Positions 23,668 through 25,827 of a stretch of 64,000 nucleotides of DNA are shown in pieces. Source of the stretch: Allopontixanthobacter sediminis (GTDB lineage Bacteria > Pseudomonadota > Alphaproteobacteria > Sphingomonadales > Sphingomonadaceae). Location: the NCBI RefSeq assembly GCF_009828115.1, contig NZ_WTYL01000001.1:558001-622000 (forward strand). Reading direction: 5' to 3'. Within the stretch, counting starts at the first letter, position 1. Each line of letters opens with the position of its first letter. Made by a program: the position numbers and the translations under genes. Below the pieces are notes generated by a model. That model did no database searches. It was not told the DNA's origin and worked only from the letters and a program-made list of their open reading frames with translations.

Positions 23668-25827
23668 GTGGCCGAAATCTCTGAAGCCGAGGCTGCCAAC
23701 GAGTTGATGAGGCTCGCGAAGCAGATTGCGCACCATAACCGGCTGTATCACGCCGAGGATACGCCGGAGATCACCGATCCGGAATTCGACGCGCTGGTCC
23801 GCCGCAATGCGGAGCTGGAAGAGGCGTTTCCTCATCTGGTGCGGGAGGACAGCCCCTCGCGCGCGGTCGGCCATGAAATCGCTGCGTCGCCGCTGAGCAA
23901 GGTGCCGCACGAGGTTCGGATGATGAGCCTCGACAACGCGTTCTCCGACGCGGAGCTGGCGGAATTCGCGGCGCGTGTGCGGCGGTTCCTGGCGCTGCCG
24001 GAAGGTGAGCCGGTCGCGTTTACTGCCGAGGACAAGATCGACGGGCTGTCCTGTTCACTGCGGTATGAAAACGGCGTTCTGATGCGCGCCGCGACCCGCG
24101 GTGACGGGCAGGTGGGCGAGGATGTGACTGCCAATGTCGCGACGATTGCGGACATTCCGCAGCGTCTTGGAGGAAGGCACCACCCCCCGGCCCCCTCCTC
24201 GGAAGAGGAGGGAGAGAATAGGAAGCAAGCTAAAGCCCCCTCCTCTTCCGAGGAGGGGGGTGGGGGTGGTGGCTTCCCGATCCCGGACGTCTTCGAAATC
24301 CGCGGTGAAGTCTACATGTCCCGCGCGGACTTCCTCGCCCTGAACGAAGCGCAGGCGGCGGCGGGCGGAAAGCTGTTCGCCAATCCGCGCAACGCCGCCG
24401 CGGGTTCGCTGCGCCAGAAGGATGCGAGCGTAACCGCCGCGCGGCCGCTCAAATTCTGGGCGCATGGCTGGGGCGCGGCCTCGGCGGTCCCCGGCGAAAC
24501 GCAGGTCGCGGTGATGGAGCAGATAAAGGCGTGGGGCGTACCCGTATCGCCGTTTTTCGAACGTATCACCTCGATGGAAGGCATGACCGCTGCTTACGAC
24601 CGGATCGGCGGCGCGCGGCCCGAGCTGCCTTATGAAATCGACGGGGTGGTCTACAAGGTGGACAGGCTCGATTACCAGGCGCGGCTGGGCTTCGTCGCCA
24701 AGGCACCGCGCTGGGCGATAGCGCGCAAATTCCCCGCAGAACGTGCCGAGACCACGCTCGAGCAGATCGATATACAGGTCGGGCGGACGGGCAAGCTGAC
24801 GCCCGTCGGCCGCCTCGCCCCGTTGCTGGTGGGCGGGGTTACGGTGACCAATGTCACGCTGCACAACCGGGATGAGATTGCCCGGCTCGGCGTGCGTCCG
24901 GGCGACCGGGTGGTGGTGCAGCGCGCGGGTGACGTGATCCCGCAAGTGGTCGAGAATTTGACCCGCGATGTGCCGCGTGGACCCTATGCCTTTCCGGACC
25001 ATTGCCCCGAATGCGGCAGCGAAGCCGTAGCGGAGGAGGGCGAGGTCGATGTGCGCTGCACAGGCGGTCTGATATGTCCCGCGCAACGTACGCAAAGGTT
25101 GAAGCATTTTGTCAGCCGCGGCGCGCTAGATATCGACGGGCTAGGCGAGAAGACCATCGACCAGTTCTTTGCGCTCGGCTGGCTTGAAAGCCCGGCAGAT
25201 ATCTTCCGGCTGAAGGAGCGGCGAGACGACATTCTCGCGCTCGACGGGTGGCAGGATAAGTCTGTGGATAAGCTGTTGGAAGCTGTGGAGAACCGCCGCA
25301 CTCCTGATGCGGCGAGGCTGCTGTTCGGCCTCGGGATTCGCCATGTCGGGGCGGTTACGGCGCGGGATTTGATGAAGCGGTTCGGTACCCTGCCGGCTTT
25401 GCGCGGATTGGCGGAGAAGGCGCGCAGCGGAGATGACGACGCGCTGGCGGAATTGAGCGGGATTGACGGCATCGGCCCTGCCGTGATCCAGGCGCTCGGC
25501 GACTTCTTCCACGAAGAGCATAACCGCGCGGTGTGGGATGATCTGCTAAATGAGGTCAGCCCGCCGCCTTACGTGGTCGAAACCACCGATAGCCCGGTGA
25601 CCGGCAAGACCGTGGTGTTCACTGGCAAGCTGGAAACCATGAGCCGCGACGAGGCGAAAGCACAGGCCGAACGGCTGGGCGCGAAGGCCGCGGGAACGGT
25701 CAGCGCGAAGACCGACCTGGTGGTCGCCGGGCCAGGGGCCGGATCAAAGCTCAAGAAGGCCGCCGAACTCGGCATCGAGGTGATCGACGAAGCGGCATGG
25801 GCGGGGATCGTCGCGGCAGCGGGATGA
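23668..25827 (+). CDS. ligA: NAD-dependent DNA ligase with in-frame repeat-derived insertion
   Basis: LigA seals nicks in duplex DNA using NAD. GTG at 23668 gives 719 residues starting with the domain Ia sequence ([26 protein letters not shown]). The adenylated Lys123 lies in EDKIDGLSC, followed by the OB fold, a four-Cys zinc finger (CPECG...CTGGLIC), helix-hairpin-helix repeats and a C-terminal BRCT domain. Between [11 protein letters not shown] and [10 protein letters not shown], where other LigA proteins have only a few residues, sit about 36 extra residues (roughly 169-204, ending in six glycines) encoded by a palindromic repeat at 24177-24273. The frame is kept and all catalytic motifs remain. 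The convergent DUF2459 gene begins its stop codon on the very next base. Confidence 0.96.
24177..24273. repeat. Palindromic element inserted in frame in ligA
   Basis: A long inverted repeat lies wholly inside ligA. The left arm (24177-24212) and right arm (24236-24273) are near-perfect complements of about 36 bases around a 23-base A+G-rich centre. Each arm contains its own smaller hairpin (CCCTCCTC-GGAA-GAGGAGGG on the left, CCCTCCTC-TTCC-GAGGAGGG on the right). The peptide it encodes is Pro/Ser/Glu/Gly-rich and unlike ligase sequence. A related half unit precedes ligA. Confidence 0.85.

Follow-up and report, generated by a model that had tools for sequence, protein, structure and literature searches.

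New protein segments have been proposed to arise from in-frame palindromic elements, which have so far been discussed from Rickettsia and from scattered cases. The sections of PMC2229807 drawn on here describe palindromic elements of Rickettsia (RPEs) lying in frame in 19 Rickettsia reading frames, and a guanylate kinase that is active with such an insert. Similarly, the sections of PMC3733652 that we used report REPs inside genes, often as dimers and many of them in genes for DNA synthesis and repair. Intragenic REPs were found there in a DNA ligase gene of O. terrae and in tRNA synthetase genes of X. oryzae, 'E. lithoralis' and S. alaskensis, and the recB genes of Xanthomonas carry a REP at about one common site (PMC3733652).

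The palindromic element in ligA

The window, by which we mean the whole 64,000-nucleotide stretch of DNA analysed, carries ligA, the gene for NAD-dependent DNA ligase, at 23668-25827 on the forward strand as an intact frame of 719 codons with a GTG start. Inside this frame, and on the same strand, lies a palindromic repeat element (type A) at 24172-24277. An earlier note on this DNA was right that ligA contains an inverted repeat, but its extent is 106 bases rather than the interval 24177-24273 given there. The outer arms (24172-24194 and 24255-24277), 23 nt long and 83% complementary, form terminal inverted repeats. The forward-strand inner arms (24184-24212 and 24238-24266), 93% complementary over 29 nt, are each a hairpin in their own right; the architecture is that of two smaller hairpins placed face to face. 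The pattern CCCCTCCTC..GAGGAGG matches three times in the window, all within 24192-24258 and against an expectation of 0, which bears out the claim that each arm has its own hairpin. The stretch 24167-24283 folds at -89.8 kcal/mol, an energy attained by 0 of 200 dinucleotide shuffles (z -8.4). Neither strand of 24172-24277 contains the tetranucleotides GTAG or CGTC, and no target-site duplication was seen by eye at this copy.

The ligA frame crosses the element without a stop. Alignment of the window LigA with insert-less LigA places 38 extra residues after position 166 (residues 167-204, about 38 forward-strand codons at 24166-24279), rather than the roughly 36 first estimated. Pfam domains above the cut-off are DNA_ligase_aden, OB, ZBD, HHH_2 and BRCT, and among solved structures the top match is E. 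coli LigA (2owo, E 1.3e-178). The AlphaFold2 model (mean pLDDT 84.5, pTM 0.60) agrees with known LigA structures by structure comparison; pLDDT falls below 50 in two stretches, 67-86 and 176-201, the latter within the insert. Across 35 aligned LigAs, 19 of them insert-bearing, K123, D125, G126, R212 and E214 are invariant together with many other columns, and the enzymes therefore look functional. We take K123 to be the adenylated lysine of LigA and the RGE stretch to be part of a nucleotidyltransferase motif. Keeping of the frame is an indirect sign that the insert may be retained through translation.

Besides the copy in ligA, the type A element occupies five other places in its own genome, as full or half copies. 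Four were found by BLAST of the element and by a half-unit pattern: a full copy of 80% identity at C1:629463-629556, and copies at C3:173204-173250, C1:309884-310008 and C1:266326-266347. Arm comparison gave the fifth, a related half unit on the forward strand at about 23598-23662, between a recN-like gene and ligA, which is recognised from arm matches, sequence and predicted fold and lies where the earlier note had seen one. Further degenerate copies may exist, because BLAST and pattern both missed this half unit. Judged from the surrounding ORFs, all five seem intergenic, and three of them lie 12 to ~100 nt downstream of a stop codon; the genes around the copies are, judging by their protein sequences, presumably ispE, valS, atpD, typA and recN. 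The expected dispersal was thus found, with the ligA copy seemingly the only intragenic one among the six places. Two further BLAST matches, both weak and intragenic (C1:575061, E 0.6; C1:98599, E 3.9), were put down to chance. Both the half unit and inverted dimers of the element occur in this genome, at low copy number.

The half unit before ligA seems to have shifted the ligA start, since the recN-like gene and ligA nearly overlap in the congener L034, and it seems to provide the ligA ribosome-binding site. The motif AGGAGG stands 8 nt upstream of the ligA GTG, in the right arm of the half unit and inside a predicted hairpin (window 23584-23670). By eye, a frame of 27 codons starts at an ATG that overlaps the recN stop and closes with a TAA immediately upstream of the ligA GTG.

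Recurrent inserts in LigA and other proteins

LigA was present in 243 of the 249 family genomes searched (six gave no match). The LigA region was taken from 218 of these genomes, with 25 left out, and these 218 together with 80 similar named loci, minus 8 exact duplicates, gave 290 distinct LigAs. Nine loci missed by the text pattern were kept, their site being judged by alignment. Counting inserts of 18 or more residues only, 22 of the 290 LigAs, the window included, carry 21-46 extra residues at positions 165-167 (insert-less numbering), a place bounded by the conserved IPQ.L on one side and the RGE-motif strand on the other. Of these inserts, 19 come from the family genomes and three from the named loci. 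The DNA of 21 of these 22 inserts is a strong palindrome (z -4 or lower against 60 base shuffles, the better value being used of the bare insert and the insert plus 9 nt of either flank). Thus an insert in this essential enzyme, regarded in the earlier note as unusual, is not rare in the family at this exact loop. The single exception, L163, looks like a decayed type D insert. A half unit or remnant stands at the site in three further LigAs (L282, L023 and L198), and the remaining 265 of the 290 have neither an insert nor even a remnant. In all 22 inserts the frame is kept and free of stops, and 0 of 298 LigA loci have an open frame starting behind the site; no match begins later than residue 40.

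The four surveyed congeners of the window (L026, L027, L028 and L034) have no insert. The statement that other LigAs pass straight through this place holds for them, but 21 LigAs besides that of the window are insert-bearing. The insert-less LigAs L026-L040 have a normal short turn here with no scar visible by eye. Neither a universal insert lacking other genomic copies nor a frame error at the repeat was found. In L242, 11 residues at the site (z -5.3) fall below the 18-residue counting limit. The LigA of L190 ends at residue 540, and the tblastn matches of L061 and L081 are several hundred bases longer than LigA itself. In genome G241, LigA is split over contigs C24 and C25 close to the insertion site (query residues 171-173), which is what an assembly break at a repeat would produce.

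In a class-wide search of 385 genomes, one match outside the window's own genome, among those listed, aligns through the insert region. This LigA (L435 in G300, same class but other family) has 22 extra residues at the same place, the DNA of which is not a strong palindrome (z -1.8). No long insert was present at the site among the 25 loci L410-L434 from outside the family (23 parsed, L423 by alignment); L418 and L440, which are the same gene, start behind the site and are hence uninformative.

Elsewhere in LigA, strong palindromes are confined to one further place. The surveyed proteins hold 66 inserts that reach 18 residues, at whatever position; 21 strong palindromes lie at 165-167, five at 547-552 of the HhH region (L061, L070, L088, L100 and L282) and none elsewhere. 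This second loop (547-556) holds repeat-like inserts of several types, in L061, L070, L088, L100, L115, L156, L164, L282, L308 and others, and several further inserts near 548-556, outside the count of five, look like decayed repeat peptides.

Other genes also carry in-frame repeats, and therefore the process is not confined to ligA. From 26 loci listed with frames spanning genomic repeat copies, seven were chosen for Pfam, and in five of these seven the domains lie on both sides of the repeat or span it. A single apolipoprotein N-acyltransferase (Lnt) domain spans the repeat in L345, whilst the repeat is flanked by domains in L362 (hydantoinase A/B), L314 (GlyRS beta), L359 (UvrD-helicase/PDDEXK) and L311 (E2 acyltransferase). 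L364 has a Pfam domain on one side only. L333 encodes a class I tRNA synthetase whose anticodon-domain match comes to an end at the repeat, and this may be a broken gene. L345 and L351, from two species of one genus (G149 and G241), have a type D repeat at apparently the same Lnt transmembrane place (Pfam for L345).

Repeat types, resident copies and the LigA tree

Nine types of insert were distinguished by eye, and six groups by local alignment against 200 shuffles. Type A was found in L011 (the window), L014 and L061; type B in L012, L013, L017, L019 and L024; type C in L015, L016 and L020; type D in L025, L115, L120, L123 and L163; and type E in L156 and L164. Types F (L021), G (L022), H (L135) and K (L018) are single cases. 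Of the insert-bearing loci, L061 belongs to Novosphingobium sp. AAP83 and L115 to Erythrobacter sanguineus DSM 11032. The C-rich arms of A, B, C and K are alike above the shuffles and form one group, whilst D, E, F, G and H show no such likeness to this group or to each other. Congeners are often without an insert or have one of another type. In genus g5, L014 has type A, L015 and L016 have type C, and L179 and L219 have none; in genus g89, L018 has type K, L156 and L164 have type E, and L216 has none. Genus g2 contains C, F and none, and genus g81 contains D and H. Even within type B, L017 and L019 (both g24) differ in arm sequence and reading frame.

Single inserts of types A-F were searched in their host genomes. 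In all 16 insert-bearing genomes tested, spanning these six types, the type in LigA also occurs elsewhere in the genome: A in G000 (the window genome) and G160; B in G158, G208, G108 (half-unit matches only), G169 and G104; C in G098, G209 and G001; D in G200, G149 and G021; E in G089 and G203; and F in G207, mostly as half-unit matches. The type A search was positive in 6 of 20 genomes including its own, with 26 matching rows in G160, 12 in G158, three in G108, two in G104 and one in G208, where one palindromic place gives up to two rows. At E 1e-6 type A had no match in four congeners (G073, G141, G194 and G235). Types B, C, D, E and F gave 0 matches in the window genome, and no type E occurs in G243 and G153, congeners whose LigA is without it. 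However, residence does not predict the LigA insert, because types also occur where LigA has none or another: C in G160 and G208, A in G158, F in G001 and G157, B in G002 and D in G081. Type A copies also lie 0.5-2 kb upstream of ligA in three genomes (G158:C1:1553794 and 1554259, G104:C7:18230 and G108:C1:1519334), and the ligA neighbourhood may be rich in such elements.

A LigA tree was built without the insert columns and presence was scored with remnants included (25 rows). Presence and absence require at least 19 changes on this tree and the type labels 22, whereas a single gain at the root would cost 75 losses. The exact number of events is uncertain because this is a gene tree with some weak nodes (support 7 for L012-L024), and because it conflicts with genus labels in placing L025 (g81) beside L267 (g91), apart from L123 and L135 (g81). 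Independent events could be fewer if gene transfer occurred. The case for repeated insertion rests on the tree and on the differences between groups within genera.

Across 26 type D copies, that in the LigA of G200 among them, the ends are sharp. In 50 of the 52 flanks a pyrimidine adjoins the element when either strand is read in the direction of the repeat, which suggests that flanks are weakly preferred. Inspection by eye showed no target-site duplication in these copies. All five type D inserts in LigA begin directly behind a Leu codon ending in two pyrimidines, at the same start base and in the same frame, and at least one other frame is used by type D in other genes. The common start base and frame hint at a target preference beyond mere tolerance. 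The Y1 transposase family RAYT (PF01797) gave 0 matches in the window genome and was rejected as the mover there. The family was present in 5 of the 32 genomes tried; in a control on 14 named genomes, 5 were positive, including E. coli.

Origin of the inserts and relation to known repeats

The element is dispersed, in frame and absent from close relatives, and palindromes of other groups stand at the same codons elsewhere. We consider it very probable that selfish, mobile or formerly mobile REP/MITE-like palindromes have inserted repeatedly in ligA, and that the surviving in-frame copies are translated as a flexible, tolerated loop. An enzyme acting in trans would have carried such elements to many sites, with a slight preference for certain flanks. 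Most insertions in the essential ligA would be lethal, and survival would be limited to insertions that preserve the frame, contain no stop and land in tolerant loops. LigA would offer two of these, able to hold 20-45 flexible residues, one after residue 166 in the adenylation domain and one near 548 in the HhH domain. The inserted peptide would have no selected function, and the arms would presumably decay after insertion, as L163, L023 and L198 suggest. It is unlikely, though worth stating, that the loop is a preferred landing place that several unrelated groups enter at one base position and frame. The cause could be a feature of the conserved Leu codon that serves as a DNA target, or hairpin intermediates meeting the ligase gene in replication or repair; if so, ligA would be a natural recorder of the repeats active in each lineage.

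A selected role for the inserts, serving LigA or the cell through regulated folding, a binding segment or a hairpin in mRNA or DNA that tunes ligase synthesis, appears very unlikely to us. Recurrence at a single loop of a DNA-joining enzyme would fit such a role, as would the ribosome-binding sequence that the half unit before ligA places in a predicted hairpin and the many intragenic REPs in replication and repair genes noted in the portion of PMC3733652 used. However, the encoded peptides vary between types, most LigAs (265 of 290) lack even a remnant, some lineages show a decayed palindrome (L163, L023 and L198), and model confidence in the segment is very low, as expected of a disordered loop. 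Still less probable is one ancient insertion in the family ancestor, later overwritten by resident repeats through gene conversion and mostly lost. The position is identical in all 22, and a palindrome already in place could promote exchange with copies elsewhere in the genome, at least for the alike-armed types A, B, C and K. Moreover, the pairs L012/L013 and L156/L164 look inherited, since the best match of each insert is the copy in the partner's LigA (91% and 90%). Against this, 75 losses would be needed where repeated events take 19 changes, and the insert-less LigAs L026-L040 retain the normal short turn with no visible scar. Types D, E, F, G and H resemble neither the C-rich group nor each other more than shuffles do, and there is therefore no homology for conversion between groups.

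That the segment is removed at the RNA or protein level, as an intron or intein would be, is extremely improbable. Only the strong RNA hairpin (fold z -8.4) speaks for it; removal would not impose the constraint under which all 22 inserts remain in frame and stop-free, and none of the 298 LigA loci has an open frame beginning behind the site. As for an assembly or sequencing artefact at the repeat, the split LigA of G241 indicates that repeats at this place may disturb assembly, but all 22 insert-bearing LigAs, which come from separate genomes, have an unbroken frame, and the window contig is 1.19 Mb long; we regard an artefact as even less probable than removal. Artefact, intron or intein, and inheritance from a single ancestor were thus considered and rejected on the evidence of frame, tree and groups. 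With repeated insertion as the preferred reading, one loop of an essential enzyme, with many entries from several groups and with insert-less close relatives, provides a ready-made comparative set. This set is suited to measuring the cost or gain of an insert, its rate of decay and the activity of repeats lineage by lineage. The question is directly testable, since in vitro and complementation assays can be applied to LigA.

In the open-licence papers searched, we found no description of palindromic inserts in LigA of this family, nor of repeated capture of several repeat groups by one LigA loop. The window case is nevertheless of a known kind, intragenic palindromic repeats being already in print; two of the species with REPs in tRNA synthetase genes, 'E. 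lithoralis' and S. alaskensis, we take to be sphingomonads. With REPs the window element shares half units and inverted dimers, and a dispersal in which the copies other than that in ligA are apparently intergenic. It differs in having neither the GTAG nor the CGTC tag (type D of relatives does have CGTC near its ends), and in a copy number that is low rather than high as is typical of REPs. Recurrent insertion at one LigA loop is not described in the portion of PMC3733652 drawn on. Bacterial MITEs such as ERIC/RU-1 and Correia are, in the sections of PMC2229807 used, similarly small, without a transposase of their own, bounded by terminal inverted repeats and in some cases fused to genes in frame; here no target-site duplication was seen by eye. 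The palindromic elements of Rickettsia and Wolbachia come close in being palindromic, ~100-150 bp long, dispersed and in frame in conserved proteins, according to the same sections (PMC2229807). The window element likewise lies in a conserved protein gene with the frame unbroken, and the suggestion that a dispersed palindromic element entered ligA in the Rickettsia manner agrees with the genomic copies, the intact frame and the insert-less close relatives. We see this likeness as one in way of working alone and do not claim membership of the RPE family. What distinguishes the present case from RPEs is that it concerns another bacterial family, and that several unrelated groups of palindromes have come to stand at one site of one gene.
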